Source: Ectocarpus siliculosus
Taxonomy: Eukaryota > Sar > Phaeophyceae > Ectocarpales > Ectocarpaceae
Reading direction: 5' to 3'
Length of the DNA: 64,000 nucleotides
Assembly: GCA_000310025.1 (NCBI GenBank)
Contig: FN649740.1
Location: forward strand, 5,377,326 to 5,441,325
This document shows, in pieces, positions 1-47,975 of the stretch. The position numbers and the translations under genes are program-made. The notes below the pieces were generated by a model, which saw nothing but the letters and a program-made list of their open reading frames with translations, had not been told where the DNA came from and made no database searches. Position 1 is the stretch's first letter, and each line of letters begins with the position of its first letter.

Positions 1-262
1 CTTTTCCCCTTTTTTTTTCGGGTTTTTTTGGGTGGGGGAACCAAAAAAGGGGGGGGGGGTTTTAAAAACCCCGGGGGTTTCGGTTTTTGTTTTTTGGTTT
101 TTGTCCCCAAACCGGGGCGGGGGGGAATTTCCCCCCCTTTTTCCTAGGAGGGGGGGGAAAAAGGGGTTTTTTTTTCCCAAAAAACCCCCGGTACCCACCG
201 GGGGGGGGTTTTAATCCCGATTTCCCCAAAAGGGGGGGCCCCCCCCCCCCCCCCCCCCCCTT
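1..262. other. Low-quality contig end
   Basis: The stretch is almost entirely stretched homopolymer runs (T, G, C and A runs of 4-20 bases) that stop abruptly at about 262, after which normal complexity sequence begins. This is what an untrimmed, low-quality read end looks like, so the bases should not be trusted and the open frames in it (rich in Gly, Pro, Phe) are not genes. A genuine homopolymer-rich repeat cannot be excluded from sequence alone. Confidence 0.75.
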
Positions 263-5300: not shown

Positions 5301-8300
5301 CGACGAGATTCACAGAACGTCGGTTACATCCTGAAACGCAAACGGGCAAGGTACCTTCTTCCACACCTACCTTTTGTGCAGCGTTGAAGGCAACGTCTTC
5401 GACCGTGTCCTCCGTCAGGAAACGGTCCAGATCGCCCTGAACAACGGCAGTTTAGTACGGAGTAAGACATTGGCAACGGCATGATTACCTTGAAGAGAAT
5501 AACACACCACTGCGCGCGTGCAAGTGCCTGGTATATGGCTGTATCGTGCGCTCAACTTTGAAACCAAAATGCTCACACTTTTTTCACACAGTTGTACATA
5601 GCATACCAGAAGAATTATTGAGAGTTGTCCAGAACGGAAAGTACGTGAACATGTTGACCGGAAAGTATGTAAGATATTGGACGTAAAGAACAACTTCTGG
5701 AAACCATTCGGCTACTTAGTACGTACCAAAACGACAACAACACATTGGGTGCTGGGTCTCACCCTCTTTCGGTTGCCGTCGGTCTGGATGTACCCCAAGA
5801 ACCTCGCCGCCTTCTCGGCCCCCATCTCAACGCACAACGCTCCGATGCATTCCACAGCGACAGGAACCGGCAAGCGGAGCATGTACTCCACACACATCTG
5901 GGAGCGGATTTATAAGCGCGATTGAGACGTCGCGACAAATCGTACGCAAATTCGGACCAAAAAGGCCGCCGTCATGTTGGAAGGTATAGGACAGCTCGCC
6001 AAGGACGCCAACCAACGGCCACGGCTTTGTTGACCGGAATGGTACGGGCCGAAAAGGATACACAAAAAGGACAAGAAGCACACGAATGAATCTGTCCAAT
6101 AGTGCTGGCAACACATCGAAGGCTGATCGGACCGGGCTAATCGTTTGTTGCTTTCAATACAAGGATTTGCCCAGGGACCACGCATATGCGCTCTTTGGAG
6201 AGAGAACTTCGAGGTTGGGGGAAGAAAAGTGAATTAATCCGGTTCGCTGCGACTTGTAAGCGATATTCAGGAAAACAAAAATGAGGAGTACACGTAGACG
6301 CTCCGCAAATGGTACGACGAAGACACATGATTTTAAGACAAGGTTCCCGAGACACTACAGCAGTACGTCATACGAACAGAAAATCATAATCAGGAGAACG
6401 AATAAACAGTGTTAGGATGCCAAAAAACAGACAAACATAAAACACCATCAATCAGCCACGAGACATAGCACGAGAGACCGGAAGCCGACGGAGCGCGAGG
6501 CGAGGTTAGCGCGGACAGCCCATAGCACAAGCAAAAGCCTCCACACAATTGTACACGCATCAGAACAACCCACACCCAACAGACAGATCATTTCCGTACA
6601 AAAACCTTTTCATACGCCACCTGTGGGTCACTGTCGATGCGTCCCTCAACAACCCTTGCCATCAGATCGACCAGCGTGGGGGCGGGGCCTGGCTCGCCCC
6701 CATCACCGGGGTAGTGGTTGTGGTCGTGTGGCGTGCCAGAGGTCCGTTCCCCGGCCGTGTAGGCGTTGTGGTGGCTCATGGCCAGGGCCATGTGCAAAGC
6801 CTTGGTCGTAGCGATGGAGGTCGAGGGAATATCAAGGATGCGCGGCGGTGGGCTTGTTACTTCACTGCAGTTTAACTGCGATTGGCTTCGGCCGTGGAAT
6901 AACAGACCACTAATTCCGCATCCTTGTTCGAGCTACATACACTGGTAAACACCGTACGGTCACACTCCTACGGTTCACCATTGAAACTGGATGAGAGGCT
7001 CTTCTGAAGGTGTTTGAAGCACACTGCACGAAGCACCTTTCGGAATTCCAGAATCCTTGTGGGTTAGGGGGGGGGCAAACAAATATGCGGATCAACTTCT
7101 CGGTCCATGTACGCATTGTGCCCACTACTATGCCGAAGTGTGTGGAGTAAGGTACAACGGTGAGTATGAGAGGACTTAATAGAGGCGAGCACGGGCAACA
7201 AACACATATGCATAACTCTGGTCACAAACACAACGAATGCATCAGAAAGACGAGAGACAAACCACCACCACCACCAACATCAACAACAAAAACGACCATC
7301 TTATCCTACGGCCCTTACCGCCAAGTGCTGCCCCTTCCAGTGCAAGAAGGCAACCGCGGCCTCGAGCTGCTGCGTGTAGAGCAGCACGTTCACGTAGGCG
7401 TAGGTGTTGGTGCCGTCGGGATCGAAACGCCTCCTAGCGTCCCTGCCGCTCACACGCGCCTGTCGTCGTCATCGTCATCGTCATCGCAAAAAAAAACAAA
7501 AAAAACAGCGGCACGTCATGGTTGATGTAAGGTTCCCTTCCTCAAAAGTATATTGGACAAGCGTAGGACGAAAGATATTGACGGGCACACGGCGGTTCGA
7601 CCTTGAAGGCCCGAATGTAACTTGGATGTAAAGTGAAGACAAACACGAACAACGTACGACAGGCAATGCGGTACAGTATCGCTTACACGCTCCGCTGTCG
7701 TTTCTGAAATCTACTTATACAGCAGTCAAGCAAAGCGCATGGAGAAAAAAAGGCACGCGACGAAAGGCATATCCTAACCACACACAAACTAAGTGTGCAA
7801 CCGAGAGATACCGTTTGGGCCAACCCCTTTCAACAATGGACAAATAACCCTGAAGGCATTCGAATTGATCACTTCCGGGAACACATCAGAACAGAACGTC
7901 AACCTACCCGCATTGCAATGCCTGCGTAATTATCTGGCGCAGAACGACTTGCAGCAGCAAAGCTAGAGCCTACCCACAGCCCGCTTGTAGCCGCAACGTA
8001 TCCCTTAGAACGGATCATCCCCACACAGTGCCACAACAACAAATTTCGAAAAATAGTTCGACGAAACATGAACAAAAACCCGCTATCATAGATGAGATGT
8101 TACACTGCTGTAGATCATGTCTCCAGTGGCAACAGCACGGCACAATCGTCCCGACGCAGCCAAGGGAGAAGGCACAACAACACGACATGGCACCATACCT
8201 TGGCTGATTCAAGAATCTCCGAGCTCTCCACATCGGAGCCCACGAAGGATAGCTTGAACCACATGTAGTCCTCGATCGTCTCCTGTGAAGATAAGTTACA

Positions 8301-11300
8301 AGATTCATTTTGCAAGATGAATTACAGGATTCATACGAAGGACGAGATTTCAACATCACACGAAAGAGAGGTGTGTGTTGAGACAACCGAAAAAAAACGT
8401 CGGGTTCCCACGGGAGGGTGCATGAACAAGGTCTGAATGAGGCCGGGAAAATCGGGTGACAAGCCGAATATTCAAGTTGTTTCTTGCTCACTCGGAAAAG
8501 GTCCGGGCGCCAGGCACAAGGGCGGCCGAAAATCCCTTGGCCCTATGCTGTGCGGCCGGACCTAATCATCGTGCGTACGCCAGGACTGGGGACTTGCTTG
8601 CGTACACCAGTCCAACAGGTTTCGGGTTGTAGTTGGAGGTAGACATGAAACAAAAGCACCTACAGTGGCAGGTTTCCAGCCCCGCGCTAGGGTCAACTCG
8701 GCCTAAACCAACCGTAAACCCTACCCAAAACCCTCACCCACATCCCCAAGCTTGGTTGGTGTACACCGGGTAGTGCTCTCAATAGGTCGGTGTACCGAGC
8801 TACTAGGGCGCTCTTTACACCGTGAGGCACTACTGTAAACGTAGTGGTTTCAAGAACTGAAACCGAAAAGGTACAAACGTAGGTCACCTTGTTGATTCTG
8901 GTGACCTTCTTGTCGTCAGAGGCGGAGAGGATGTTGAGCACGGACTGCTTGAAGCTGTCCTCTCCGTCCCTCATGCTGAAACAGCAAAAAGAAAAAGAGG
9001 CAAGAGGAAGGCACCAGAACAAAGCGCGGAAGAGAGGCGGGGGTTTTAAGGCGGATTATATACAAAACGTGTGATTTAACTGCTGGAAGCCCAACACACC
9101 GCAAAACTTGTAATGTTGGGGCTGCGAATACATCCGCCACCTATATCATGTCCTTCGCATCTCAAACCTTGCATCACAGACTTCGACGCCACACTCATGC
9201 CCTCTAATCCCTCGTTTTGTATGAGATAATAAACAGTGGTATTTCTACAAGCTGTGGAAGACAACAACGAAAACGTGATTTGCCTACGAGCAAAACAGAG
9301 GGATACCGCATCCACATTAGCATGCCCACCAAAGCTGCGGCAGCAAGGAATGATAACCGAGCGAACAGTGATATGGACGCGGCGGGAAAGGTAGACAATC
9401 CTGAATTAAGAATGGCCTTCAATATGCAGTGAGCCGCGCTCGAATATTGAGCAGATCCTGCCCTCCATGTTAAGACATACATAGCACAGGAAGGAAATCT
9501 GCCGTAGGCACGAAGACAGCTACAAGTCAAGCGTCACAAAATTGTTCAAAGACGACATCGCATATCGGTCAGAGTGTCGGAGTGGGTCATCACATCACCT
9601 GTGGAAAGCTTGCTGAATGGCGCCGCCGAAGGCATTCTCCGTCTTCCCCTGGGCAAGCAGCTCGCTCACCTTGGTCAACAACTCAAGCTCTACAAACGAG
9701 AGACGCACAGGACACGCAAGACCAGTTCTATGTTAACCTTCATCTAGTCGTTGCCGGTGTGGACCGAAAGGCTCAAGAGACGAATGCGTGTGTTTGATGC
9801 TGCTGCTGCTGCTGCTTCTTTCCGGCACAAACAGTACAGGTGTCTACAGTTCCCCGTGTGGGTTCATCTTCCGCCTTCCGTGTGAGTTCGACGACATGAT
9901 ATGAACCCACACGATACTCTCGTGCCTGTTGGTCGTGACAAGCAACCCCAACCCCAACACAACCGCTTCAAGTAGCAGACATTCGTGCACACGATTGGAG
10001 GGAGTATCAAGATGTGGCTAACAGCATGCACGCTGTGCATGGCAGATGATTGTCGCCAACGCCATAAACAGCAGCAGCAGCAACAACAACAACAACAACA
10101 ACACTGCATACCTTGCGGGGTGCATCGTGAGTTCTCCGGAGATTCTGCAGCGGCACGAGCGATGGCGCTGGCGTCGGCTCTCCCCCCGCAGCGGAGGCAG
10201 AGAAAAATCTGCGGCCACACCGGCAGCTGCGACAACATGGCCCCGCCTCCGACCACGAACTGCAACATCAACCGAACGACGACGAAACCAACCACACGAA
10301 AAAGACCGTGGTATGTTGCCCCGCTTGTCTCACAAATCGCGTGCTAACCACAAGGGAAAAAAACAAAAAAGCAAACACAAACCGCGACCAAACCGCCAGC
10401 CGCACAAATATAACGACGCTGCCACAACAAACTGGAGCAGGGAAGGACAATCTTCCGAATTAAAACAAAAAAACGACCCGGGTGAATGCGCACGTTGAAA
10501 CAGCAGTGGGTTCGATCGATGGTACACAGGCTTTAATACGCACACTACAAGCATCGCCGCTTCGCACATTTCTGACCACAGTCAGTATGCTCTCGAGAAA
10601 AAACTAGTGGTACTCTTCAACAGACAATCCTAACAAAAAAGGGCAAGATCTGAGGACGTACTAATGCTCGAGAGCAAAGCTAATAGAGGCATTCCTGAAC
10701 GAGATGATGTCAACAAAAACGGCAACATCTGAGAAACTCATGGCGCTCTAAGCAAAATCACAAGTCGTCAGTCAACAAGGCGCCGCGAAAAAACAACCAA
10801 ATAACAACCAATACGTTATCAAACCTAACCATACCCAAACCAACAATACCTTGCTCTTCCTGTCGAGGCGCATGAAGGCTCGAACCTTGAACGGCAGCCC
10901 GGTATCGGTGTCTCGAACGGTTGACGCGTCCACCGTACCAGCCTCCCTCGCCCTCTTCACCTGGATACGTCAACCATGCAAGGCATGTCCACCATACAAG
11001 ACACCATGTCCAGCCATGCAAGGCATGTCAACCATACAAGACACCATGTCAACCATGCAAGGCATGTCAACCATACAAGACATCATGTCCAGCCATGCAA
11101 GGCATGTCAACCATACAAGACACCATGTCCAGCCATGCAAGGCATGTCAACCATACAAGACACCATGTCCAGCCACGGGCCATCCGAAAAGGTGCAGAAT
11201 TACAGCAACATTAAAGTATCCCAAGATGGGGCATGCTACTTGTAGATATAGCGTTGCGGGCTGAGGGCATATTTAACACTATCATAGGCAATTGGTGTCC

Positions 11301-14300
11301 AGGCGTGAAAAAAAAAAAAAAATCTAGAAAACTGTTGTATTGTAGTACTGATTTAACGACGTACCGTACGCCAACATACAGCAGTATACTCTACTGGCGT
11401 CGTTGCAAGAAACCAAATACATGCAACCTCGACAGCATACTCTAAATAAAACAACCAAAGACGCTTTGCTTTTTAACTGCACTGCTGCACCTGATCGTCG
11501 ATGACCTGCTTGAACTGCTTCTGCAGGAAGTCCAACGTGCCGTCTAGGCGAGAGCGGGACGTGCTCGCTCCGGCACCCTCCCACCCTTCTCCCTCGAGCA
11601 TAGTCCTGCAATAGTATAGCCATTCATGACATAGTCATACATGACATGGCGACAGACGGAAGAGGTGTTCGTTGGAGAGATGTCATAGTTCGTTGATTGA
11701 GAGGTGTGTGCCCAATCGTGCCCTGTTCTTTGTATTTCTTGTACAGTGTTCGAGACAGGAGCACGTCAAAACGGTGATAAGGTTTGACACAATCTATAGA
11801 AAGGTGCCGTTTTAGGTTGACACACGTTCTGTGGTGTAGCGCATCATTTTTCATTCTTAGTCAAGCCTGCGGTCTGTCATGTCAGGCCCACTATCTGCCA
11901 TGACCGTGACGGCACCGACAAGAGTCCACAACGACAACTACATTAGAAGTATTAGACTAGAACACCGGAGATGGCTCTACTAACGTCAGCACAATCAAAA
12001 ATGTGCCTGCGTGCGTTGCGTAAGACCTAGTAATTCAAATAACAGTCACATCACCGCATCCCCAGCAGCAGCGAAACGATAACAACAACAACAACAACAA
12101 CAGAAGCAACGACAGAGACACGGAAGTCTACTTTGTATTATAGTCTACTTACTCAAGCATCTTCAGCGCGTTGAAGTAGGCGTGTTCGGGACCGTTCTTG
12201 ACCCCCGGTGTAACCACAGTGCTCGCAGAGGCTGCCAGACGTGTCGCCAACGGGAACTTGCCGTCCTGCCAGAACCAAAACCACCATCCCATCCCCGATC
12301 GAGACGAAGAGAAAGAAGGGAGCGCGAGTAAGTTTGTGGTCGAGCGCCGAGCTCAGGAATGAGAAGAAAGACGATGTTCTCTGGCTGTTATTTCCGACAC
12401 CGGGCTGAAAAGGCGATATGAGAAGCGAACAACGAGCGTGGAGATTGGTCAATTGCCGCCTTGATCAGGCCAAACTGTCAGAGGTGATCACCGACTAAAG
12501 TTACGCAATAGGATTCACATGACGACAAGAAGCAAAAAACTGCCGACAGACCTACACCTGCCGACAACCTTTCAGCGCAGCACGGTAAGGTGACGGCCGA
12601 AAGACAACTAAATACTGCAGCGGTATCTTGGCGATGGGTCACATCGCCCGCGATGGATGCCTGCTGTCTGCGCAAAGGATGAGTTTCTGGGCAAAATTGT
12701 GAAATTGTGATACCGCGAGGAACATTCCAGAGCGAGCCGGCCTCATCATACTGACGACACTGGGAACTGTTGTTGATGTTGACCGCAACAAGAACCCGCC
12801 GTGTCGATCGAAAACAGAGAGCGCGGATGACTTGCCCAGCAGCCACAAAAAAAAAAAATCAAGAGCACCGTACAAACGTATCACCTCCTTATTAGCCACA
12901 ACCACCGCTCACTGAGAGGGCAACAAAGCCTAAAGCGTTCACGCATGTACCTGGGAAACGACATGGGTCTACTCGAGGCTATATTACGCCGCACACTTGA
13001 CCAACCAGAAGCCGACACTCAACTCACCGTGTCGTTGAGAGCGCGGATGACAGCCAGGTGCCCCACCTCCAAGGCCGACAGCCTGCTCGCGGTATCCGTC
13101 GTCGTGGGAGGGACGGCCGAAACGGGAGGAATCACGCCGCCCGCAGGGGGTACGGCCACCACAGCCAGCGACTGGTCCAGCGAGAACGGGGGGGGGGGGG
13201 CGGCGAGGGGGGTTCCGTGGTCGGGTGGTCAAAAAGATTGGGTAGTCTCAAGAAAGCAGGTAAGGTAGACAGCCATATATTCAACAAGTCTGGTGACGAA
13301 AAACAGGTGGTCTATACATTAATGTACGTAACAGTGTTGATCGGCTAACTTCTAGTTGATCGGCTAACTTCTAGTTGATCGGCTAACTTCTAGTTGATCG
13401 GCTAACTTCTAGCTGATCGGCTAACTTCTAGCTGATCGGCTAACTTCTAGCTGATCGGCTAACTTCTAGCTGATCGGCTAACTTCTAGCTGATTGGCTAA
13501 CTTCTTCGCGGCGACGACTACGGGCACATCAAGTTAGACTGTTTTCGACGGTAACCTCGGGGATTAACCAAAAACCGTATTTTCTGACAAACACAAGCAC
13601 CATCGCGAAAAAAAAAACAGTACCGACAGCGACGAAACAAAGGCCGCAAAACATCCCAACAGCAGCAAAAATAACGACAGCGAGGAAACAGGCCAAATGA
13701 GCATCCGGATAAGAGCAATAGCAACGCCAGCGCCAACGAGCGGAGAGCAACCAACTCACCCCTTCCGGCCTGGGAGTCTCTGGGTGAACCCTGCCTTGCT
13801 CTCCCGCACCACCGACGCCGGAGGGTCCTCTGAGCATCGAAACCCCAGAAAAAGAGGACGGACCAACGCCTCCGCAAGAGGAAACTCCGCCATTCATGGC
13901 CTCCCCCATCAAAGCCTGCTCGCCACAAAATGAAAAACATAAGCAAAGGCGGGCAGGCGTACTTAAACAGCAAACATCTAGAAATCGTGGGTGTAAAAAA
14001 AACGGCAAACATTTAGAGATCGTGGGGGTACTGATCGTAGGCGTACTGAAACAGCAATCTCTGTACATAGAGATCGTTACTTTAACGTTGAGAGATCGTG
14101 CGCGTACTCAGACACCAAGCAGTAATATACAGATCGATTGTGAAAGAAACAAGGCAGTGTCCGGTTAACCGACAGCCTACTCCACCAGACGAAAACTGCA
14201 GTCAGGTGGTGTGAATCCACCAAACCAAACCACACACGCTCGATTATGGCTTTCGCCGACCAGGCCCGGCCTACAGCAGTTGTTCGCCTCATGGCATCAA

Positions 14301-17300: not shown

Positions 17301-18885
17301 GCTGTGAAGGTGTGAAGGTGTGTGAAAGATATAGGACACGATGATACCAAGCGACGTGCTCACTACGGTACTACCGTACTCGTGGAAATGTGTATCACAC
17401 GCAAGCCCTTTCAAGACTCTTTTTCTCTACTACGGGCGAGGAGAGGAGAAGGTCAAATCCAAAATGAATTACCAAGTACATCACATGCATACGTTTTCGG
17501 AAAGCTCTCGACGAGCCGGTTCCAACGCCTTCCGCTATAGTCGGCACCGCCCCTCTTCGCCGCGGAGTACTATTTATATCATACCAGTACGGTCGCCCCG
17601 GTGGTCTAGTTGGTATCCTCGAAACCTTCTAGAGGTCAGGTCAGGGGTTCGGATCCCGGCGCAAGCGAGCTTTTCTTGCAAAAGTGAGTTTTTCTCTCGC
17701 TTCCGCTCCTGGCCTAGTGGATAGCGCTAGTTCGTGCGTACACAGAGGGAAGAGAGTGCTGAACTCTTCTCGCATTAAAAATCGAAGGCAAAGTACCGCA
17801 GGAGGGGAGGGTAGAGAGGGGCTCTGCTGTGTGACCACGGGTTGGAGTAAACGGCACGAGTGCTGTGAGCGCTGATTTGAAGTGAAGACAAAAAAAAAAA
17901 AAAAAATGAGCTTTCAATATCGGTCCAGGGTGTGTGATATTTAACGTCACCCACGGAATCAGGTGCCCTTGATCTATAGCAACCTACGGTCGAATAGTCT
18001 GGTGTCACAGCAACGTGCCCCGAAAGAATGGCCCTTGGAGGTTGACGCTATGGGCGTGCACGTGTGCCTACACATGAGGCACCCCACGGCGGTGCTGCTG
18101 TGGGCATCCACATTGACATGTCCGCACGTTTCAAACTTTTGTAGCCAATAGCTATACAGCACCTATGACAGGAAAGAGGGTCCGACAAAGAAGGATGTTT
18201 TCGGCTTGGACCGCAGCAGCGGTGTCAACCCAAACAACGGGCAACAGCAGTGCACATCTACAGCTACCGGAGTTTGCACCAGCGCCCGACTGGCATATCC
18301 GCAATGTAGTGCACAATGCTGCCTGCAGACTAGAATGCTCCGAGCTGGGGAGCAAGAAAATATGCACCTTGAGAGAAAGCACACAGGGCTGAAGATTTCT
18401 GTTAGTGAACAACCGGGAGGCTACGGTTGGGCGACTCAACTACTGTAAACCCAATGAGACATTGAACAATCGGTCGCCATCAAAATTCAAACCGGGGACT
18501 ACCGCAAGTAAGCGCAGGCTTGCAGGCGGCAAAATAAAGCTGGCCGTTTGATTTACGACAACAGCGGACTCTGCACCACAAAGACAAAACCCAGTCCAAC
18601 GACGCAGCCAGGGAAAGAGCGACACATCAACAGCTCCAGACAGAGAGAGCGAAGGGATGGATGGGAGAAGGACACATGGTAGGCAGGCACTCAGGCACTC
18701 ACGATCTCAGCCAAGCTCTTGTCGAGGCGGGGGATGCCATCCGGTCGTGCGATGTGCGTGAGGAGGCTCTCGCTGCCCATCATCAAGGCCTGCAGGTCCA
18801 TCTCCACAGATTGACTACTGCCGCCTCGACCAACCCCACCGCCGAAGCCATTTCCACCACCACTACCGCCAATGCTTGCATCCAT
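2362..18885 (-). CDS. NUP93: Nucleoporin NUP93/NIC96, scaffold of the nuclear pore inner ring
   Basis: NUP93 is an alpha-helical scaffold protein of the inner ring of the nuclear pore. I rebuilt 24 exons, in transcript order: 18885-18703, 16671-16558, 15684-15571, 14930-14802, 13915-13760, 13171-13028, 12265-12153, 11605-11491, 10960-10850, 10259-10112, 9689-9599, 8975-8888, 8282-8199, 7969-7908, 7442-7319, 6800-6621, 5897-5763, 5436-5371, 4820-4683, 4417-4355, 3786-3710, 3200-3071, 2836-2717, 2484-2362. All junctions are GT-AG and all phases agree, giving 935 residues against 819 in human. Family landmarks run in order: GGYQPLQPLGETDIE (animal TTFEPLEPVKDTDIQ), LPVWPQIFLCLRCG (animal HPVWALIYYCMRCG), ETIEDYMWFKLSFV (animal TEDYLWLKLNQV), TYAYVNVLLYTQQLEAAVAF, and a helical end AMVGFAGRL. 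The least certain points are the start codon, exon 14 (7969-7908) and the exact acceptor of exon 15. Sequence identity to animals is low, but the collinearity is unmistakable. Confidence 0.95.
10070..10104. repeat. CAG/CAA trinucleotide tract in a NUP93 intron
   Basis: Four to five CAG units are followed by eight CAA units. They sit about 8 bases past the 5' splice site of NUP93 exon 10 (donor CAAG|gtatgc at 10112, minus strand). On the transcript this reads as a (UUG)n(CUG)n tract just downstream of the donor. The poly-Gln, poly-Asn and poly-Cys open frames here are by-products of the repeat. Confidence 0.85.
10974..11174. repeat. Five-copy 40-bp tandem repeat next to a NUP93 splice acceptor
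   Basis: Five head-to-tail copies of a 40-bp unit are present, beginning catgcaaggcatgtcaacca and continuing tacaagacaccatgtccagc. They differ by a few substitutions (tcaacc or tccacc; cacc or catc; ccag or caac). On the minus strand the array ends only about 13 bases before the acceptor of NUP93 exon 9 (exon starts 10960), so the repeat must occupy the region where the branch point normally lies. There are no spacers between units, so it is a minisatellite and not a CRISPR array. Confidence 0.95.
13337..13506. repeat. Nine-copy 19-bp minisatellite in a NUP93 intron
   Basis: The unit ttgatcggctaacttctag is repeated about nine times without spacers. The first four copies start ttg and the later ones ctg, so the array expanded from two variants in blocks. 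The last copy carries gattgg in place of gatcgg. It lies entirely in the intron between NUP93 exons 5 and 6. Confidence 0.95.
17480..17943 (+). mobile_element. Copy of a short inverted-repeat element (MITE-like), interrupted
   Basis: The core around 17491-17560 (acgttttcggaaagctctcg, then gacgagccggttccaacgcc) and the right end at 17907-17943 (gagctttcaatatcggtcca followed by gggtgtgtgatat) match elements at 42862-43053 and 35059-35270 and the half copy at 37993. The left terminal repeat is degraded. Between core and right end sits a SINE-like insert. It lies in the first NUP93 intron (16672-18702). Confidence 0.7.
17595..17906 (+). mobile_element. tRNA-derived SINE-like insertion
   Basis: The left end resembles a tRNA gene. 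It has an A box (tggtctagttggt, about 17603), a possible anticodon-type stem, and a B box (ggttcggatcc, 17646-17656) spaced as in RNA polymerase III promoters. A second tRNA-like A box (tggcctagtggatagcgc) starts at 17710. The right end closes with gtgaagac and 17 A residues (to 17906). That layout of tRNA-like head, unrelated body and A tail is typical of SINEs. The 3' end resembles sequences at 38982 and 47467. The acceptor stem does not pair (5' gccccgg against 3' ccggcgc), so it is not a working tRNA gene. Confidence 0.7.
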
Positions 18886-20520
18886 CTTGTGTGCGCCGGT
18901 TTCGCTGTAGGGCAGCAGCCGAGTGACAGAGCACAGCGGCAGAGAACAGAGGCTGGGGGGTACACAGTTGGGAAACTGACGGAGGAGTGGAGTTGCATGC
19001 GGTTCACGAGGCTTCTCACAATAAACACTATTTTTTTTTTCGGAGGTCCGAAGGTGTGCGAGGTGCGAGGAGGGTGTGGAGTGCGGATTCCGCCCAGAGG
19101 ATCGACAAGTATGGATGCCTTTAGCGAGAGGGGTGAAGTTCCCTGCCAAGATGGCGTGTGTTTAGGCCAAGACGTCCGAAGGACCTCCAGGTAGCTCCTT
19201 CGAAGCTGGAAGCAAGGTGGGTCGTCACGTTGCGAAATGAGCCGCATCCATGAAGATCTTTACACCGGTTCCTATTATAATTGTGAGTGACCGACCCCGA
19301 TTCCTGCAGCTGTGTACACACAATAGTACTGTAGCTCAACTCCGTAGTAGAGGAGCCAGCAAAATAGACCAGGGGGATATGGCGAGCTCGACGGAAACAG
19401 ATGGGTGCGCTAGGCTGATCGTGCGAGCGACCGTGCTACGGGGATTTACGCTCGAGAAGTAACTGCTGTATGCATACATACAGTCTACAGTCGATCACGT
19501 AACACACAAACCTAACAACCAACTTCGAACGATGCGAGAAGATTTTCTGCTTTGGATCCGTGTCGAGTGGCGAGGTCGTCGTGAGAGGTGCACGGGTGGA
19601 CGTCTGTCGAGGAACCACAACAAACGGTCTGCAGCATGATTCGAGGGGTGGTACAGTAGGTGTTTCCACCAATGCAATATTCACGGCCGGCCCTGGGGTG
19701 AGGGCTCACGGCTTGTCCTCGGCACATTTGATTGTTGATCCGCTTTCTGTGGTACAAGGCTTGCCCAACCCTACTTTGTACCGAATCGTTGGCGGGGACC
19801 ATACATGTATACTTCAATCGATATCGGCTTCGAAACGTGCCATGAAAGAGTGAGGAAATACGTCGCTGTGTGGAGGTGAAGAGGTCTCAAGGTGATATCT
19901 AGCCACTGGCGCTCCACTGATACTGATGACGATCACGAGCGTCGGCCACCTTGACATTTGCCGCCCTAGACTTGTGTCCGACCCCTTTGATAATGTACCG
20001 AACAGATACCGATCCTATGCTCCCGAACGCCACACTCTGAAGTGAGTGAAGAGGGTCCGGCGATAAAAAGGGCGCGTATGAGAATAGAGTATCCTCGTTT
20101 CGACTTCCACGCAGAAAATGGGGGGGATACGGCAGGGTCTGTACTGCAACCGTGCCTACCTTACCAAGTCATTCTTTCAATTTCCAATGGTGTAAAGAGC
20201 TCGTCGTTCCCAACAAAGAAACACACCCAAAGATGTTGGGTGTTGTTCTCCTATGTTAGAGATGTATTCAAGCCGTCAGAAATAGCAAAGCCATTTCGCT
20301 GCGTAGACTGCGGAAAGCAGAGCCCTACCCACGCACGCCGCGTTGTGACTGAGAACTTTTCACACTGCAGCAGGTTGTTGATGTGCCGACGACCCACTCA
20401 TACACCATGTAAAACCACCCTCTAAAATTCCTTTTTTTCTCACCCTACACTTTCAACAGAAACCACCAACACTTCCTCGTCTGAGAGGACGCCACCGCTG
20501 CTGCCCCGAAACAGAGAAAA
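18886..20520. other. Divergent intergenic region between NUP93 and the WW-domain gene
   Basis: These 1.6 kb separate two start codons on opposite strands, so both promoters and 5' untranslated regions should be here. I recognise no convincing TATA or initiator element, no exon with supporting phase, and only a short T run (about 19030-19039). The open frame upstream of the NUP93 start stays open to 19149 in the same frame but reads like non-coding sequence. Confidence 0.5.
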
Positions 20521-26300: not shown

Positions 26301-29300
26301 TGAAGTGTTTCATTTTCCCACAGGACTCGAATGTTGCACAAAAACAACTATTATGTACGCACGGAACCTTCACACCGCTACATGTAGGCACGCACTACTA
26401 CTTTTCCAACAAGAGTGTTGGTTCGTTGAGAATATACGTAGTACGTGCAGTAGAGGCCGTGAAATACTACCGTGGAATCTTCTTCCAATACCCTTCAAAG
26501 CATGATGATGTGGACCGAAATCGTGGTGATTCACGAAGAGGAAATCGTTTCACAGTTCTCCCTTGGCCGCAACCATGGTCTCAAGATATGTTCGGTGGTC
26601 GAAGTCAGCCATGTGAATAATCTCTGCGGTGACGCGAGTGACGCTGTGCTTGCTTGCAATGGCACCATATTCAACTTTGATATTGCAGGGCGAAGAATAC
26701 TAGTTATCTCTCACGAGAAACGTTGAAAGCGTGCACCACAGAAAACTCCTTCTGCGTAGGCCCAGACGAGAAACGAGACCTGGGAGGCAGCAACCGAAAC
26801 CGGCGCTCCCCTCTTGACTCTGTACCACCAACACAACAAACGTTTTGAGCAGGGATTACAGGCGAGCTACTGTTCTTGGTGGAGAGTGGCCGCCACCACC
26901 ATGGTTGAGGCAGCTGAACTTGCCGGCTTGGAAAGGCGGGCTCACACCATCAAGGTCGGAAGCACCCAGTGATTGGAGAGCAAATGACGGTCGCTCTCTC
27001 TCTGCCCTTTCAGGACGAGTACTATGTATCGTTCAGCAGATTCTATTGTTTCTTTGGGAAATACTTTCAGGTCGTGTTTGAACTCGTCACGTAGGCCTTG
27101 TTGATTCCCGTTGCACCCCGCTCAGAGTGCCCGAAACTCCCTACATATCCAGAAAGAAGCCTGCCGAGTCCAAAAAGTTCTCCGCACCAAAACCATTTCA
27201 AGCCTGGAACACCCCAGAGGGTTGTACGGTGGCTTTCCTAACATGGACCCTCGAAAGGGTACAGAGGTGCCATATTGCCGAAATTAAATCTTGCCGCACG
27301 CTTGTTCTCTTGTTCTCCGTGTCTGTCCGCAGATCAGCGCCGGCGGGGCTTGACCGGTTTACAGGAGCCCGCTTCGCGGCAACCGGCAACAATAGCGGCA
27401 ACGGGAGCAAAATCGACAACGATGGCAGACGTACTTTCGCTTCTTCCGGTTCTGCCAGCCGAAGCGCGGAATGTTCTCCGCAACGCCAGCAACGGCAAAA
27501 AGAGAGGCGAGGATCCGGCGGAGGCGAGGGCGGCGGCGGTAGCGGTATCGCAAACACATGTCCGGTGGAACGGAGCGGCGATTGGGCGGAGGATTCTCGG
27601 GGCACGAGGGCAGTCTTCTCGCCCAAACGTCGGCCGACGAGTTCTTCTTGTTGTTCTTCGGTAACGTCGATGGCGAACGACAGGAATGGCAATAGGCCGA
27701 GACCAGCGACGGCGGGGGGTAATACCCGAGCCGAGCGGCGTCGAATCAGAGGAAACCGTTGTGGCCACAATACTATCGCTACCGGCAGCGATGGAACTGC
27801 CGGAAAGTATCGCCCAAGGTCAGCGTCTTCGAGGCTTTATTCCCCTCTCGACCAGTCCGGGGATAACCAAACATCACAATGGGCGCGGAACGGGAGCACG
27901 AGTGTAGGTGGAGACGTCAACGGAGGACATGGTGGCGGGGGAGCCGGTTTTGTGTGGGAGGCGGAGAAAGCCGGGCTACCGGAGGGTTGGGCAGAAGCTG
28001 TTGACGAGGAAAGTGGCCACGTCTATTACTTTTCGGGAAAGAGGTACGAAGTCGTCCTGACAGGGGGGCATTCTTCCGCCGTACTGAATGTACATATGTA
28101 GTCCAAAGTAACGTTCCATCCACAGAACTGCAGTGAGTGCCAATAGGAGCCATGTGCAGTAAATAGTGTAATGCTCTCGACGCGGGTATTGGTTGATGGT
28201 TCTGAAGCGCCAATGGTACTTACCCTCGCGTGTTGCCAACCTTCCAAGCTTTTCGACCAAGTAACACTCACATTTACAAGCCTTTCACTTGTCGTTGATC
28301 TCGCCGGTCGGGGGAGCTGCCTCACGCCCCAAACACGGTTCATCCGAGTTGATGAACGATCACCCGCGCACGGTATACCTCGCACTTCCGAAACCCTGTA
28401 CATAATTCCAGGTCGACCTGGGTGAAGCCTGTCGCACCTGCCAGCCCTCGTTACCGTAGCCATTCATTGGGGGCCTGTCAGGCGACGAATGCCATCAATG
28501 GCGACGGTAACGAGGATGCTCACTCGGTGATCTTGAGCACAGCAGCAACAGGACTCGCCGGCTCTCTCCCCCAAGCGGCAGAGGCAACAACGCCAGGAGT
28601 GGCAATTTCAACAAGAGAGCGAGACAAGGCCCCCGATGGAATATTGGAGGACGGTCGACTCGCTGAACGCGTTGACACTAAGGCTGCTTCTACGGCGGTA
28701 TTGGCACGACCGGTCGATTCCCCCGATGAAGAACAGGAGGACAGCACCGAGACTAACATCCGTCCTGAAACTGGACGGAACGTTCCACCAGCAGCGAGCG
28801 GGCCAGAGAGAGCGGTTGGGGAGGGAGCGGAAGAGGGGAAGAGCGAGGAACGGCATGGCAGTCTGCACCGCCTCTCTTCGACTAACATACGAGGATTTTC
28901 CAATGGGTCATCTGGCGTGCCTGAGAGCCCCTCGGGATTTGACGATGCCATGTTGCCGATACGCGGAAGGAGTGGAAACAGCGCCCCGTCGGACCACCGT
29001 GGGAGAGGACCTAGCTGGCCCTCCAACAATGGCTTGGATGGCTCGATTCTGGCGGGTACGAGAAAATCGCGATCGGTCGTTCATGACACCGTCGATGCCT
29101 TCACGTCAACGTCATTACCGCAAAAGATCGTGGAAGGGAAGGTTTTGAGTAGAGCAAACGGGATCCAACCTGAAGAAGCAGAGCCATCGAGACCCCGAGA
29201 AGCCAGCGGAGTGGACAGGCTCAGCAGCGACGTTCAAGAGGAGGCAGGCTCTGCTACCAGCAGGGTGCGTAGCAACCTTCTCCCGCAAGCGAGGGAAAAT

Positions 29301-30035
29301 GACGAAGGCGATGATGATGTCGAGGGCTACAAGACGACGCCCACGTGCTACCGCGCTAACTTTGGCAGCGATCAATCATCGCCGCTGCAGGTCATCCAAA
29401 CAGAGGCTCTTCCTGCCACCGAGTCATCTCCTGATGCCGCAGATGATGTGGCTACCGATGCGTTGGTTTCGAACACGGCAAGCGCAAAAAAAAACGAGAC
29501 GCCTCCTCTGGAAACCACTCCGTACGTGAACGACCTGAGCGTCAACGACAGCAATAATATTGAAAACAAAACGTCGGTTTCCGTCGCGCCTGCGGGTGAT
29601 GATGCGGATGCCATCGACGCGAGGACCACGAGGGTATCGCCGGCATCGGTTTTTGCGGCGGGGGCGGCGCCAGGGTCTCCGCTTTCGCTCGAGGAGACAG
29701 AGAGCGCGATGGCGGCGTTGATCGCGAAGTTACGACCATCGCTAGAACGCAGCCTCTCTCCCGAGGAGTCAAAGGTTGCCGCTGCTGCCGTAGACTTCGA
29801 GACTGGGGGTAATGGCCCCGACCCGGGATTAGGGTCAACAACAGCGCCGCTGCTAACTGCGGGCGATGAAGGAAAGAGCGGCAACTACCGAGAAGGAGTA
29901 CTATCCGTGAGTTGGGATATGACCGCAATGCAAGAAAGCACCGATGGGGGAGGCGGTGTTGCTGGCAAGAAGTTGGATGGGGAGGCTTCCGAGGCAGCCA
30001 CGGGGATGTACGAGGACGACTTTGACGTCGATTGA
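20521..30035 (+). CDS. Large coiled-coil protein with a single WW domain, function unknown
   Basis: Rebuilt exons are 20521-20919, 21397-21810, 22505-22641, 23068 to about 23158, 23519-23674, 24249-24359, 24973-25591, 25931-26090, 27126-27266, 27333-28043 and 28412-30035, giving roughly 1,520 residues. Phases agree at nearly every junction. The ends of exons 1, 4 and 9 are the weak points. Exons 3-6 and 8 encode coiled coil (for example KEVEHWKAETENARAEANEA, and QHQRIERQRTRMQELERDL). A WW domain spans exons 10-11: LPEGW, then HVYYFSGK, then STWVKP, with two Trp about 21 residues apart and the closing Pro, which fits a proline-rich peptide-binding fold. The last 540 residues are acidic and Ser/Thr-rich and end MYEDDFDVD. 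Short Arg-Pro-x-Ser/Thr-Ala motifs recur (TRPASAP, ARPSSAQ, RPRPATA). The architecture suggests a cytoskeletal or ciliary scaffold, but that is inference. Confidence 0.78.
23331..23402. repeat. (CT)n / (CTAT)n microsatellite
   Basis: About 22 CT units are followed by three CTAT units and degenerate CT. The tract lies in the intron before the 23519 exon of the WW-domain gene. Pyrimidine richness on the sense strand may contribute to acceptor recognition, but the nearest acceptor is over 100 bases away. Confidence 0.95.
23686..23875. repeat. (TTG/TTGTCG)n-rich tract
   Basis: A degenerate trinucleotide tract of GTT, GCT, GTC and CGT units begins about 11 bases after the donor that ends the 23519-23674 exon. 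Frames through it give poly-Leu, poly-Cys or poly-Asn/Asp peptides on the two strands, which I attribute to the repeat. It is intronic in the WW-domain gene. Confidence 0.85.
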
Positions 30036-41140: not shown

Positions 41141-44100
41141 ATGCGCCGACTGCTGCACCGGAAAGTCGACCCTGAAGAGCAGGCCAAGGAATGGAGGCGA
41201 AGCATCAACCACGAGGCGAGTTTTTTGTCATGCAAGTTCTACTACAGTACTGCACAAGTACATGGTTTCCATTCTGTGTGTCCAACCACGGACTATGCAT
41301 TGTACGCATAGCGAATAGCGGCGAGGACAGAAAAGGCGGCGTATCTCTCTCCTTGTTTTTTTTATTTTTTGCATATCTCTCTGTCTCTCTGTGTCTCGGA
41401 ACGTCGCCATCGCAGGGCAGCATCATGACCATCGACACCTGTCTCTTACAGTAAATCAGAGCATATCTCTGGTGCTTGTGTATCCCCCTGCCTGGCTCGA
41501 ACGATATCGATTTTTACAAATAAAGTACATATATTATGACTTAGCAGACCACGCGCTGGCTCGAGGGGGGGGGTCCGGGGGGGCGGTTCCCCCCCCCCGC
41601 CCNNNNNNNNNNNNNNNNNNNNNNNNNNNNNNNNNNNNNNNNNNNNNNNNNNNNNNNNNNNNNNNNNNNNNNNNNNNNNNNNNNNNNNNNNNNNNNNNNN
41701 NNTGGGGGGGGTCCGGGGGGGTGCATACCCCCCCCCGGCACTCGTATTGTGACCCAGCAGACAACGCGTGCGGTGGACCAAGCATACTACGCGTGTGGTG
41801 AACCCAGCAAACCACGCTGGGGGGGGTCCGGGGGGGGTTTACCTATTCCTCGTGTCACCAGACGATGGCTTGCAGGACAGAGAGTTAGCAAGAGATTTCC
41901 TCAAGGAGGCGTTCCAACCGCCCATCGATGCCGTCAACGCTCTAGCCGACATGCGACAAAAGGCACCGCCCACTGTTACGGTTAACAGGAGGGGTATAGG
42001 GGAGTTTCGTACGCTACACTGTGGGACGAAAGACGGCCATACAACGCCCCAGACGGGTGGGCGGGTGTGTGGTCTGGAGTTCTGTACAACGGTTTGGGTG
42101 GGGCAACGCGTGTCGAGGGGGAGTATGCACTCGCTGAGCTGTCGAACTATTGATCATCTTGTGCAATATCGCCAAGTGGCTACGAACGGAGAGAAGAGAG
42201 GCACACCGGTGTGTGACGAAGCACATAAGGAACTCCTCGAGAGGGGGAACATGACGCTGCTGCGCATGAACTGTCTTTGAGTACATGCGAGCAACACGGC
42301 ACTCCTGTGACGCACACTGCACGACGCTCGAATCCCCGTCAAGTGCCTTCGAGCGAATCGAGTCACGCGGCACTGTGACCGCACACTGCACCGCGCCCGA
42401 AACCCCGTGAAGTGTCTGCGAGCGAAGCGAGTTACGATGCCACTATGTCTTACTCCAAAACCATTACACCAACAACACACCAAACCCTGCTATGAATTTT
42501 TTTCATTTTTTCCATCTTGCCCCCCTCTCTCCCTCTCTGCCTTTTACTTGTACAAATACATATTGTATCTTATAGCAACTATTGTTTTCTGCTCTCCTCT
42601 TCAGCAGTTGCTCGACCTTGCTTCCAGAGTCGTTTCCTATTTCCTGCCGATGAAGAGTTGAAATTTCGGTAAACCGATCACACTGCTGTTTGACTTTTTC
42701 TCTTGTGTGACCCTGGCCGTGGTACGTCAGATATATACGCCGAAAGGCCTGTGAACCGGCGCCAGATTAAATGTGACGAACACACACACCTCCCCCTTTT
42801 AATACATAGCAACAGCAGTAGCGGACGTGACGGTCACATATGACCTGTACCGATTCGACACAAGATAACACACCCCCTGGACCGATTTCCAAAGCTCGAT
42901 TACCCCACGGCGAAGAGGATGCATAAACGAAACGATGCGTTTTCGGATAGCTCTCGATCAGGCGGTTTTCAACGCCGCCGTTTTCGGCGCTGCGATTCTC
43001 TCTGCTGGTGGTAAATCGAGCTTTGAACATCGGTCGAGGTGGTGTGTTATCTTGTGGTCGTATACGGTAACATGTACTACATATAGTACAACACACACGT
43101 CGAGCACTGCCAGATGCTACTGCTGTAACTCCGTTCATCTACTACATGTCTTGGTGTTTTTATTCGCTGGTGTCACCCCCCCCCCTCCCCCCCCTATTGG
43201 GTATACTTGGACATCCGCAGGGTTTGTTGTACACAGCAGTAGGGGACACATTTACGACCACGACCCAAATTATGTGCGTTTTGTACGGACGTGTTCCGTT
43301 CGAATGTTGTCTGACACTATCCCGAACCGCCCGATCTTTTTTGTGTACTGTACATGTATCAGTTGATCTGTACGTGGTCCAAGAACATTCCATTCATGAT
43401 TGAACACACGCTCTTCGCCCTTTAACGTCGCAATGTCAATGCAAGTTACACATTTTGCAACGTTGTGTTCGGTAAGGTGCGGGTATGCTCGGTACCGGTA
43501 CGGACATCGTACCGAACGTACCGAACTTCTCGGTAACGGTACGGACGGCGTACCGAACCTACCGAAGTCCTCGGTACCGGTACGAACATCATACCGGACG
43601 TACCGAACTTCTCGGTACCGGCACGGATTATCGTACCGGCACCACCGGTACCGGTACGAACTGCGTACCGAACGTCCCGAAAATCTCGGTACCGGTACGG
43701 GCATCGTACCGAATGTGCCGAACTTCTCGGTACCGGTATAGACACCGTACCGAACTAACCAAGCTTCTGGGTATGGTATGGAGGCCCATACCGGTACCGG
43801 TACCGGTGATACAGGCGATACCGGCGGTGTGTGTGCGGAGCGTCTGTCATATTGCCCGCCCAAAATGTCAATTTCAAAATGCACGTGCAAAAACAAAAAT
43901 ATTTGTATGTGTGCGAGCAAAAGATTGAAACCATTGAATGAAACCAAATAAAAAATATCTATTAATATTAATGCAGTATTAATATTGTAGTATTCATATT
44001 ATACGCAGTAAATCCGAGACTCTCCCCATTGAAAGTCGAGCACAGGAGAGTTGAAACGACAACGGATTTCAATTTCCAAGGTTGTGTTCGAAAATTCAAG

Positions 44101-47100
44101 ATAAGAATTTTTGAATTTCAATTCCAAGCTACGTAGATGGGAGCAGGCCTTATCACTGGCACATCACTGGCACGCCCGTGCCTCCTCCACCATCCACGAC
44201 AACAACTCCTGCCTCCGGAGGTGCTGGCGCCGGCGCTGGCGTTGATGAGCGTTGGTCGCCAGCAGCGGGTGCCTCGTTGTTGGACCCCCCGACAGCAGCG
44301 GGGGCATCGTTGTTGGCGGGGGTTGATGCGGTGCTGATGAGGGCGGCTGGTACGCACGACCTACCGAGCGAGGAGGGTACTGCTGTGCTGCTGGTGCTGT
44401 GCGTGTGTGGCGGTACCGGGTGAATACCATGCCTAACTTCCCGATCAGCCCGGTACCGGTATTCTCGGTACTGGTATACGCTCGGTACCGGTATGAACAT
44501 CGTACCGAACGTACCGAAGTTCTCGGTACCGGTACGGACGTCGTACCGAACGTACCGAAATTCTCGGTACCGGTATACCGGAGGTATATTACCGCTGGTA
44601 CGCCTCGGTATGTACCTTACCGAACACAACCTTACATTTTGTATGTATTCAGCCATGTATCCAGCCATCAGCCACTTCTCCCGATAGGAATGAACCGTAT
44701 GGCTTGGAGATTTGTTGGACGAATTGCATTCATCTACCGTATGCGTAGAGAATTGCGAAGTAAGATTGTATAACCGAGCTTGTTTCTTACGAACGGCTTA
44801 CATACTGTGTTTTTGGTTGGTAGTTTGTTTTTTTCAACTACTTGACGGCAGTATCATGTAGCACAGCACAAAGACTGTCGTAACCAGTGTCAATTGATGG
44901 TGAATAGTGATACCCATCTCAGATTACGATCGCACACACACTATTTAGCTTACCCCACAACGTCTCCAGTACACGCCGGTCTATGGCAACACTATCCACG
45001 GTGCGCTAACCTCACGTAAACCGGTGGCATAAGGGTTAGGGCTAGGGAACACACGGGATGCGAAAGTTTTAAAGAATATTTGCCGTGTCAACCACTGCTG
45101 TTACGCCAAAGTGGCAAGCACCCGCCACATCTGGTGAATGTTGTATGTATGCCTGTTTCCCCACCGTGTTCCCGTCCCAATGTCGTGCACTTTTTTTCCT
45201 CGTGTACCAGATGTCGATTTTTTTCGGGCGGAACGATTCCGCGGAAAGCAATAACCCCATCCGCATTTGGTCCCGTAATGCTTGTTGTAACGCCACGAGT
45301 CTGTTACCCTAATCGTTTATGGATTAATTTCGTGGGGCGTTTCTCTTCCACCCACTCCGTGGTAACCGCTAAGACATGGTTACGTGAGTACACCCCCGCC
45401 GTACTTGCTGTCTGTAACGCGTGGTGTGTGACATGTGATGCAGGTGCGAGCGCTTGAGCGACAGATCGTTTCCCTGGAGAGGGCCGAGAAGAAGGTTCAG
45501 AAGGACATCAAGACCATGGCCAAGGAGGGCACTCGCAACGAAAAGGCCATTCGAGTGAGCATGAGGATGAGGATTTGATGTACAGGGCGTGTTGTGTCGT
45601 TTTGCTTCGTCTTGTTTGCTTTTCTTCGTACAGGAAGAGTTTCGAATTTCTGGGTAGAGATATCTCGCGATTTTTTATGGGTTTTCTAGGAGTTGGTAGG
45701 GAGGCGGGCGTGTGTAAGCCGGCGCCCAGAATATAGATGGGACGAAAGCACACACAATGTAAAGCAGATAGTATTCCCGACACCATGTCTCGCAATCTTG
45801 GCGAGTGACGAGATCTAGCGTAGATGGGCAATTCAGCAACCAAGAGCACGAAGGCGACACGTGAGTGTTCGGAGCACAACCAAAGGCATTTTCCTGTACC
45901 CAGGCTCGCAGTCTTCGGAGAACGTTGTACCGGCAAGAAGATGAGTATTCGAAAATCATGATGGCGTCTTGGAATTTTCTGTTGCTTTGTACCGTCGTTC
46001 TCTGTCTGAAATGGCGTGTCCCATGGGCGATGACAGGAAGGGTATGTATTTCGTGAAGTACATGTAACTGGTCATGTGTGTTTCGTCTCCTGATGCTTGC
46101 GTACTGCATCGTCCTTTTTCTGGTTCTGTGGTATATTCGACTTTTTTATTCCAGCTGCTTGCGAAGGAGTTGGTCATGTCGCGTAACGCCAAGAACCGCA
46201 TGCACGAGGGAAAGGCACAGCTTCACTCCGTCCAGATGCAACTGCAAAACCAAATAGGTGAGCCGGGGCCGTGTCTGTTCGTGTATTTCAGTGTAGTCAA
46301 TTTATTTAACGTCAAGGTTACGATTGTGTCGCCATTTGGTCGCCGATATGAATTGAGGAGGGCGCAGCTGCGGTTCAGATGCAACCTCAGAGACACCGCG
46401 CAACGCGTCAATGCATGCTGTAGAGTCTTGGTTCTCGCCCTTCACGCCGCCGCCTTCTGCAGCTTCTTTGGTGCGGGGCATGGCTTGAAGGGCTAGGCTC
46501 GCACCTCAACCCAAGGATCTACTCCTCTGCTTTGCTGTGCTCATCTTTTTTCTGTTGTGTGTGTGTGTGTTTGTGTTTTGTTCAGCGTTGATCAAGGTCA
46601 CCGGCGTCATCAAGAAGAGCACAGAGATCATGGCGTCCATCGGAGAGTGAGTGCAACCACTTGAACCACTTACCGAGCCCGACGATGGCGACTATGTTGT
46701 CCATTCGTGCATGGTTTGTGTTTGTCGACGGCCTTCAACCCGTCTACGCTCTTGATCGTTGATAGTAGCGCTGACAGTCGATGTACCCATTCCCGTTGTA
46801 GACCTTGTCACGTTGGTTCTGGCTGTTGGTTTTGTCCAAGTTTGGTAGATCGGTGTACACGCCACTTTGGTGCCATGTTGCTAAGCCCAGCTGCGTGAAG
46901 GCTTCGAAGTCGGAAGGCACAGAATTGCGACTCATCGGAAACTGGGTAGCTGGGCCCCGCAACCAACTAACTCTCCTGTTCTACTTACACAACACGATGG
47001 CTCTTGTGCTACCCACCGCGTGTTGTGCTGTTCCTGGTGACCCTCCGCGGCGTAATTTACGGTACGTACACGCCGTTTTGCGCGCCCCTGGGGTCCTCTT

Positions 47101-47975
47101 GTGCAGTAACGGCTACCTGTAGGTTTTCGTATGGGGTATGTCTTAGGGCTATCGTTCTGACGTGCTGACTATATCGAAGCCTGTTCTTATGTGTACGCTC
47201 ATACCGTCTGCGTTTTTGTTGTCCCCGTTTGCTTCTTCTTTGTTTCTTTTGGCAGTTTGGTGAAAATTCCTGAGCTGCAGGAGAACATGTTCCAGCTGGC
47301 AACGGAGATGGAGCGTGCGGGGCTAGTGGAGGAGGTTGTCGCCGATGGACTTTCCCTTACAGACGTGAGATCGATTACGAAGGCCTCTTTGTCGTTCGTT
47401 GTACACGTATCCTTGTTTTATCTTGTACCATACCCCGTACTATTTTCTGAGCAGAGACTGGAATGGTTTTAATGTGAAGACAACAACACTGAAATATTGT
47501 AGTCTATTCCAGAGGCTTGTCAACGGCCACGTCTCCTGAGGGTGCTCTGTTAGTCTTCCCTGCTAAGCTACGCGTCACCTGTTTTTTCGTTTGTCCGTGT
47601 TCGCGCAAGAAAAAAGTCGTGCAGTAGGTCTTGGACTGTCGAAAGAGCAAAACGCTCACGAAGCAGAGACACACGGTTTTGAGGCATCGAAAATGCGGCG
47701 GAAATTCCCAGGACAGTACAACCTGTGTCAATCGTAAATTGTCCGGGTTGTGCCGCGTTTCGGATTTTTGTTTCGGCACACAGGCGGAGGGACTCGATGC
47801 CCAGGCAGACGCGGAGGTGGACAAGGTCATCGCCGAGATTACGGAAGGGGTTCTCGAAGGGGCGGTCGATGCGCCGACGGCGGTTCCCGAACCGGCAGCG
47901 GTTGCGGCGCCTGCTGCTGCCGCTGAGGAGGAGGAGAAGGCGAACGCCATGAAGGCTCGATTGGAGTCTCTGTGA
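41141..47975 (+). CDS. VPS24: ESCRT-III subunit VPS24/CHMP3
   Basis: VPS24/CHMP3 polymerises with other ESCRT-III subunits on endosomes and drives inward membrane budding and scission. Six exons: 41141-41215, 45444-45554, 46155-46257, 46586-46646, 47256-47364 and 47784-47975, giving 216 residues (human CHMP3 has 222). The exon 1-2 junction reads EWRRSINHE|VRALERQIVSL and aligns without gaps to the first helix of CHMP3. Further matches are AKELVMSRNAKNRMHEGKAQ, KKSTEIMAS and DLVKIPELQENM (animal SLVKIPEIQATM). The acidic tail ends with a MIT-interacting motif, NAMKARLESL. The basic N-terminal helix (RRLLHRK) fits membrane binding. Intron 1 is 4.2 kb and begins with GC; the other introns are 0.3-0.6 kb and GT-AG. 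Intron 1 contains an assembly gap and two transposon-like elements. VPS2/CHMP2 was considered, but the KIPE segment and alignment favour VPS24. Confidence 0.95.
41545..41835. repeat. G-rich minisatellite around the assembly gap
   Basis: The block gggggggtccggggggg occurs three times (about 41567, 41704 and 41820). It is interspersed with diverged copies of a roughly 25-bp unit like gacccagcagacaacgcgtg. The homopolymer lengths look unreliable, as at the left end of the window. The tract surrounds the N run inside VPS24 intron 1 and is probably why the assembly broke there. Confidence 0.7.
41603..41702. other. Assembly gap of 100 Ns
   Basis: Exactly 100 N characters are present, a conventional placeholder for a gap of unknown size. 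The true length of VPS24 intron 1 is therefore unknown. Confidence 1.
42862..43053 (+). mobile_element. MITE-like element, most complete copy
   Basis: Terminal inverted repeats of about 40 bases flank a 110-bp core. The left repeat reads aagataacacaccccctgga then ccgatttccaaagctcgat. The right repeat, on the other strand, reads aagataacacaccacctcga then ccgatgttcaaagctcgat. The core contains gcgttttcggatagctctcg and ttttcaacgccgccgttttc. There is no coding capacity. It is related to the copies at 17480, 35059 and 37993 and lies in VPS24 intron 1. The target duplication is unclear because the flanks extend the palindrome. Confidence 0.88.
43458..44633. mobile_element. 1.2-kb inverted-repeat transposon with 8-bp target duplication
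   Basis: The two ends share a perfect 17-bp inverted repeat, gttgtgttcggtaaggt at 43462-43478 and its reverse complement at 44614-44630. Immediately outside, the 8-bp word acattttg occurs directly at 43450-43457 and 44634-44641. Each end carries a block of tandem palindromes based on tcggtaccggtacg and tcgtaccgaacgtaccgaa (about 43490-43805 and 44450-44585). The middle is AT-rich with no transposase. Terminal repeats with an 8-bp duplication are characteristic of the hAT superfamily, so a non-autonomous hAT-like element is the best guess. It lies in VPS24 intron 1. Confidence 0.85.
47467..47488 (+). repeat. Retroposon-like 3' tail in a VPS24 intron
   Basis: The sequence ttttaatgtgaagacaacaa is identical to that at about 39070-39089. 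It lies in the intron between VPS24 exons 5 and 6, immediately after about 100 bases that may be the retroposon body. Only the tail is securely shared. Confidence 0.6.

Follow-up and report, generated by a model that had tools for sequence, protein, structure and literature searches.

Transposons of the hAT superfamily are described as having short terminal inverted repeats (TIRs, 5-27 bp), 8-bp target site duplications (TSDs) and subterminal repeats at both ends (PMC3517528, PMC4890040), the latter having been termed a defining hAT feature (PMC4890040). In the Ac/Ds system of maize, 11-bp ends (C/TAGGGATGAAA and TTTCATCCCTA) are combined with 8-bp duplications and a hexameric binding repeat, AAACGG, and filler-containing Ds-like elements about 1 kb long constitute the largest class in maize B73, with 486 of 903 elements (PMC3260210). 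Hermes, an autonomous hAT element encoding a transposase of 612 residues, possesses imperfect 17-bp TIRs and two dissimilar ends; at its left end, two neighbouring subterminal repeats form a quasi-palindrome that is bound by two BED domains (PMC10368747). The hAT7 families of rust fungi, which encode a transposase and in twenty cases also a TET/JBP gene, generate 7-bp TSDs and cluster with other fungal hATs and with plant hATs such as Ac and Tam3; in the literature that we found, this 7-bp lineage is described only in rust fungi (PMC12730594). TSDs of 7 or 8 bp are likewise described for the KDZ superfamily, comprising Zisupton, Dileera and Kyakuja (PMC12730594), which is prominent in Ectocarpus (PMC12477816).

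Here, we analysed a 64-kb stretch of Ectocarpus siliculosus DNA (the window), in which a block of 1.18 kb with inverted ends lies within intron 1 of VPS24/CHMP3. We interpret this block as a cut-and-paste (class II) transposon that is non-autonomous and most probably hAT-like, and assign this reading a probability of roughly 60%, its membership in hAT being plausible but unproven. Like maize Ds (Ds2 and the Ds-like class 4), the element has short inverted ends, a length of about 1 kb and possibly a filler interior, along with subterminal repeats, which bind transposase in Ds and putatively do so here; an outermost C/T mismatch between the ends would be a further likeness, should the 7-bp reading of the duplication given below be right (PMC3260210). 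In contrast to Ac/Ds, to which it is compared by description only, the element has 17-bp arms (19 of 21 positions over the full ends) and a 41-bp palindrome-bearing tandem unit. Its TIRs, its dissimilar ends and the palindromes of its arrays resemble those of Hermes, whereas tandem 41-bp arrays are not among the Hermes features described in PMC10368747, no protein was detected in the element, and its target site departs from the Hermes preference nTnnnnAn. The likeness to the hAT7 families is again one of description only and holds if the ungapped 7-bp reading is right (PMC12730594).

Ends of the element and flanking duplication

The features of the locus are compiled in the table below.

Table. 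Coordinates of the element, its parts and its host gene within the window
Feature	Position	Strand	Details
Element block	43458-44633		1.18 kb; 17-bp perfect inverted arms, direct copy of acattttg on each side
Left target site duplication, acattttg	43450-43457	+	letters and inverted-pair scan
Left duplication, 7-bp reading	43451-43457		cattttg
Left duplication, 9-bp reading	43450-43458		one mismatch
Left TIR	43458-43478	+	CAAC, then 17-nt perfect arm GTTGTGTTCGGTAAGGT (43462-43478)
Left subterminal array	43488-43773	+	41-bp unit, 7.2 copies; palindromic CGGTACCG cores, then GTACCGAACGTACCGAA; Tandem Repeats Finder
Two further cores beyond left array	43792, 43798
AT-rich interior segment	43870-44109	+	18-43% GC in 60-base bins
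Internal 13-nt exact copy of right terminus	44078-44090	+	AAGGTTGTGTTCG; left-end orientation
GC-rich interior	44170-44409	+	63-70% GC in 60-base bins; no Pfam match; possible filler DNA
Right subterminal array	44411-44576	+	41-bp units at 44481 and 44522; cores at 44411 and 44451
Right TIR	44614-44633	+	17-nt arm ACCTTACCGAACACAAC (44614-44630), then CTT
Right TIR, 7-bp reading			A44634 added
Right target site duplication, acattttg	44634-44641	+	letters and inverted-pair scan
Intron 1 of VPS24/CHMP3	41216-45443	+	4,228 bp; GC...AG borders; holds the element
VPS24/CHMP3 exons	41141-41215, 45444-45554, 46155-46257, 46586-46646, 47256-47364, 47784-47975	+

The window was scanned for exact inverted words (minimum length 11, separation 60-6000) flanked, no more than 4 nt outside each arm, by an exact direct repeat of 7-10 bp. 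Three such pairs were found, with arm and duplication lengths of 17 + 8 (the element), 12 + 7 and 11 + 7. Order-1 Markov shuffles (n = 20) yielded no pair in 18 cases and a single pair in each of the other two, the sum of arm and duplication reaching at most 18 bases compared to 25 for the element. At the spacing of the element, 0.04% of random positions show a direct repeat of 8 bp within 5 + 5 nt and 0.16% one of 7 bp, and the arm pair was also recovered by a repeat finder (23 nt at 91%). The inverted-ended block with its flanking direct repeats is confirmed as real, far above shuffles, and its terminal inverted repeats together with exact acattttg on both sides are those of a class II (TIR) element.

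The preliminary description had reported 17-bp inverted ends and an 8-bp target duplication. While the arms are indeed perfect over 17 bp, they are set back from the flanking acattttg by 4 nt on the left and 3 nt on the right; read inward from each tip, the bases outside the perfect arm are CAAC and AAG, respectively. Since the arms do not lie at the very tips, the duplication can be read at more than one length. The exact match of acattttg on both sides stands, but a duplication of 8 bp implies unequal ends, the left one being one base longer than the right. When the A following CTT is counted as part of the element, the ungapped ends CAACGTTGTG... and TAAGGTTGTG... differ at 2 of 21 positions, one of these being the outermost base (C vs T), and the duplication becomes cattttg (7 bp). 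When, alternatively, the C is counted as part of the target, the ends differ at 1 of 20 positions and the duplication extends to 9 bp with one mismatch (acattttgC/acattttgT). One copy cannot choose among these three lengths. A recent insertion, as proposed earlier from the preservation of the element, is possible, yet this age is left unsupported by the duplication, because as much as 17% change per site (95% bound) could have occurred with all 16 target-site bases still unchanged, and because an 8-bp duplication already requires ends unequal by one base.

Subterminal arrays and interior of the element

The exact palindromic core CGGTACCG occurs 13 times within the element and twice in the remaining window, which bears out the blocks of palindromes noted previously at both ends. 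These blocks are 41-bp arrays, each unit containing one palindrome CGGTACCG and two GTACCGAA words; the tandem stretch of the right array (44481-44576) holds 2.3 copies of the 41-bp unit (Tandem Repeats Finder). Left and right units share one strand orientation, and the arrays are not mutual inverted copies. Among the nine units compared, left and right units are identical at 17 to 39 of 41 positions, or at 32 to 39 when an irregular unit at 43611 is set aside. Folded as single strands, the left array (43488-43810) outperforms 100 of 100 shuffles (z -6.45) and the right array (44405-44600) 200 of 200 (z -3.77), scores that mainly restate the palindromic nature of the units. TIR and arrays have the 8-nt word GTTCGGTA in common; this is a weak test, a shared word of that length being matched by 801 of 20,000 shuffled TIRs (4.0%) and 889 of 19,548 random 17-mers of the window (4.5%). 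The suggestion that the arrays are transposase-binding subterminal repeats is plausible, and we retain it as a putative role.

With the exception of one step of 6 bp, the spacings between cores (32, 33, 40, 41, 64 and 82 bp) are near multiples of 10.5. The resultant length for helical phasing at 10.5 bp amounts to 0.60 for the eight left cores and 0.78 for the five right cores. In a control in which the 41-bp, 82-bp and 6-bp steps were fixed and the remaining four spacings randomised, the observed value was reached in 14% of draws on the left, 16% on the right and 2.2% at both ends. Phasing of the cores is thus suggestive only, a lead and not a result. One might picture the ends of this family as being read through tandem palindromic sites near one face of the helix, a 'landing strip' that would expand the subterminal recognition known from hAT, in a lineage with 7-bp duplications; its odds being lowered by the random-spacing control, we consider this picture very unlikely.

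Between the arrays, an AT-rich segment is followed by a GC-rich one, the border between the two being about 80 bp or less from the internal copy of the right terminus. Interior matches of at least 13 nt were reached by 21 of 19,553 random 25-mers of the window and by 2 of 2,000 Markov interiors, whereas the best interior match of the left terminus spans 10 nt only. This copy might represent a former end or have arisen through filler capture; like the mosaic composition of the interior, it is suggestive only. In line with the non-autonomous element devoid of coding capacity that had been described, no Pfam family was matched by the two longest frames across the element (E 0.1) or in six-frame scans of it (E 0.01), both being weak tests. 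GC by codon position in the interior frames is 0.66/0.67/0.61, 0.70/0.69/0.64 and 0.74/0.59/0.67, compared to 0.67/0.36/0.73 in VPS24; this measure is indecisive for coding in the interior, given that the same flatness is seen in a long open frame outside the element (28356-30032; 0.61/0.55/0.59).

Superfamily assignment and alternative explanations

The tip pattern of hAT elements is YARNG, to which both tips conform under the 7-bp reading (CAACG / TAAGG), only the left tip under the 8-bp reading and neither under the 9-bp reading. We regard hAT as the best fit since this superfamily combines short TIRs with a duplication close to 8 bp and with subterminal repeats on both sides, and since the tips are readable as Ac-like. 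The TIR of 17-21 bp falls inside the hAT range cited above (PMC3517528), and subterminal repeats are present at both ends, their binding role being putative; an exact 8-bp match is present as well, yet the ungapped ends imply 7 or 9 bp. Against hAT stand this uncertain length, the much greater frequency of KDZ elements in Ectocarpus and the target site, acattttg fitting neither nTnnnnAn, preferred by Hermes (PMC10368747), nor nnnTAnnn, preferred by Buster (PMC3517528), although both are preferences only and are here compared with one site. As a hAT-like transposon, the element would be mobilised in trans by a transposase supplied from elsewhere in the genome. Several copies of the N-terminal DNA-binding domains of this enzyme would load onto the palindromic 41-bp units, and its catalytic core would engage the short inverted ends. 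The block would then be cut out and re-inserted with a stagger of 7-9 bp, the fill-in of which would yield the duplication, while the interior would be replaceable filler, like that of maize Ds.

The same working could be driven by a KDZ transposase, the block then being a non-autonomous member of the Zisupton or Dileera group. KDZ is far commoner in Ectocarpus (8 families, 1.80%) than hAT, which is rare there (4 families, 0.05%; PMC12477816), and 8-bp TSDs are made by Zisupton and by the Dileera-lineage Zisupton-1_PGr, 7-bp TSDs by the two characterised Laccaria Kyakuja families (PMC12730594). The latter, however, are described with 5'-CA..TG-3' termini and no TIRs (PMC12730594), whereas the element has TIRs and ends in CA...TT or CA...TA, and its ends can be read as Ac-like. 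A Zisupton element with subterminal repeats and a target site duplication was not found in our literature search, which carries little weight; nor does the length of several KDZ families (>10 kb) argue against such an origin, because a derivative may be short. On balance, we consider KDZ an unlikely source. Similarly improbable, in our view, is a non-autonomous element from some other superfamily with long duplications, be it Mutator-like (9 bp with one mismatch), P-like, Dada or an unassigned TIR group. The 9-bp reading, which leaves the ends differing at a single position, would suit this origin, and 51 Ectocarpus DNA families lack a superfamily while one is MuDR (PMC12477816); but the TIRs of plant MULEs are long in most cases (PMC3310237), and Dada elements are described as making 6-7-bp TSDs in small RNA genes, the U6 and U1 families being without TIRs (PMC3706591), whereas the present insertion lies in a VPS24 intron and the window has no Rfam or tRNA match.

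The block might also be a mosaic, in which one element or end is nested in another (some 556 bp between an inner end near 44078 and the right terminus) and mobilised by the shared ends. This reading draws on the internal copy of the right terminus, its left-end orientation and its rarity among random 25-mers, as well as on the rise in GC from 0.33 in the bin of the inner copy to 0.68 two bins (120 bp) further. It is weakened by the short internal match of the left terminus, by the overlap of the first bases of the inner copy with a local near-repeat (ATTTCAATTTCCAAGG / ATTTCAATTCCAAGC), and by the lack of an array directly after the inner copy and of a visible second duplication beside it. A mosaic origin thus appears doubtful, and it is compatible with a hAT-like transposon instead of excluding it. 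That no transposon is involved, and that a minisatellite-rich stretch of the intron happens to be flanked by similar repeats, we regard as scarcely credible: the arrays are tandem repeats, but the inverted arms and the flanking repeat lie outside them and exceed the shuffles by far.

Search for relatives and host gene

A second copy of any part of the element was not detected in the window (blastn, E 0.01). Six-frame Pfam scans of positions 20001-58993, minus a few bases at chunk joins, revealed no transposase; they also missed the exons of VPS24 and are therefore insensitive to split genes. Beyond this range, Pfam coverage comprised one reading frame (18538-19191). Neither Rfam families nor tRNAs were found in the window, and the element was not found described in the literature searched, supplementary TE libraries lying outside the scope of this search.

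In sequence collections, the exact 17-mer of the arm occurs in 2 stretches of viral contigs and 18 of bacterial or archaeal genomes; chance alone would give about 30 in 257 billion bases when both strands are counted and the four bases are equally frequent. When the element was compared to 24 collection loci (L001-L024; blastn, E 0.1), the arm itself was matched over up to 23 nt in L001-L020, and the sole match outside the arm was 32 nt at 84% in L012. These stretches were rejected as relatives, being alike essentially at the arm only. The four matches to a TIR-plus-core pattern (L021-L024) are ascribed to chance, since none of them matches the element better than E 0.36, and a degenerate pattern of the 41-bp unit had 0 matches in viral contigs.

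The element is an ordinary kind of jumping element, which leaves the general picture of transposition unchanged; in its regular subterminal arrays, it offers a clean case of the non-autonomous type. It is useful for locating the autonomous partner and for separating 7-bp from 8-bp hAT lineages; the arrays deserve a second look only if 7-bp duplications or phased binding sites can be established for the family.

The previously described position in VPS24 intron 1 is upheld by the gene model, whose six exons (41141-47975, + strand) are spliced to encode a protein of 216 residues with a Snf7 domain (E 4.9e-26). The best solved relative of this protein is Charged multivesicular body protein 3 (3frt_A, E 1.7e-39), VPS24/CHMP3 being a membrane-trafficking gene. 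The window has a GC content of 52%, and its introns are long.

Intron 1 of VPS24

The first intron of the VPS24/CHMP3 gene, which holds the probably hAT-like element, appears to be a GC-AG intron. Its 5' border reads GAG/GCGAGT, with an apparent GC start, whereas the remaining 4 VPS24 introns start with GT. The same intron contains an assembly gap, shortly past which lies a 25-bp tandem repeat, as well as a 69-bp tandem repeat that precedes the element by about 1 kb.

Features elsewhere in the window

Of two long open frames, the first partially matches a WW domain, at E 3.8e-5 and short of the Pfam cut-off; the Pfam search returned no match for the second. A further inverted pair (TGGCGCTGGCGT), weaker than that of the element, spans 3.6 kb with 40-bp and 19-bp tandem arrays inside, and may be due to chance.

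Window positions of the features described
Feature	Position	Detail
Inverted pair	10163-13735	12 bp, 7-bp direct repeat
Open frames	27082-30032	
Intron 1, 5' border	41216-41223	
Assembly gap	41603-41702	100-N run
25-bp tandem repeat	41751-41817	
69-bp tandem repeat	42305-42436	1.9 copies
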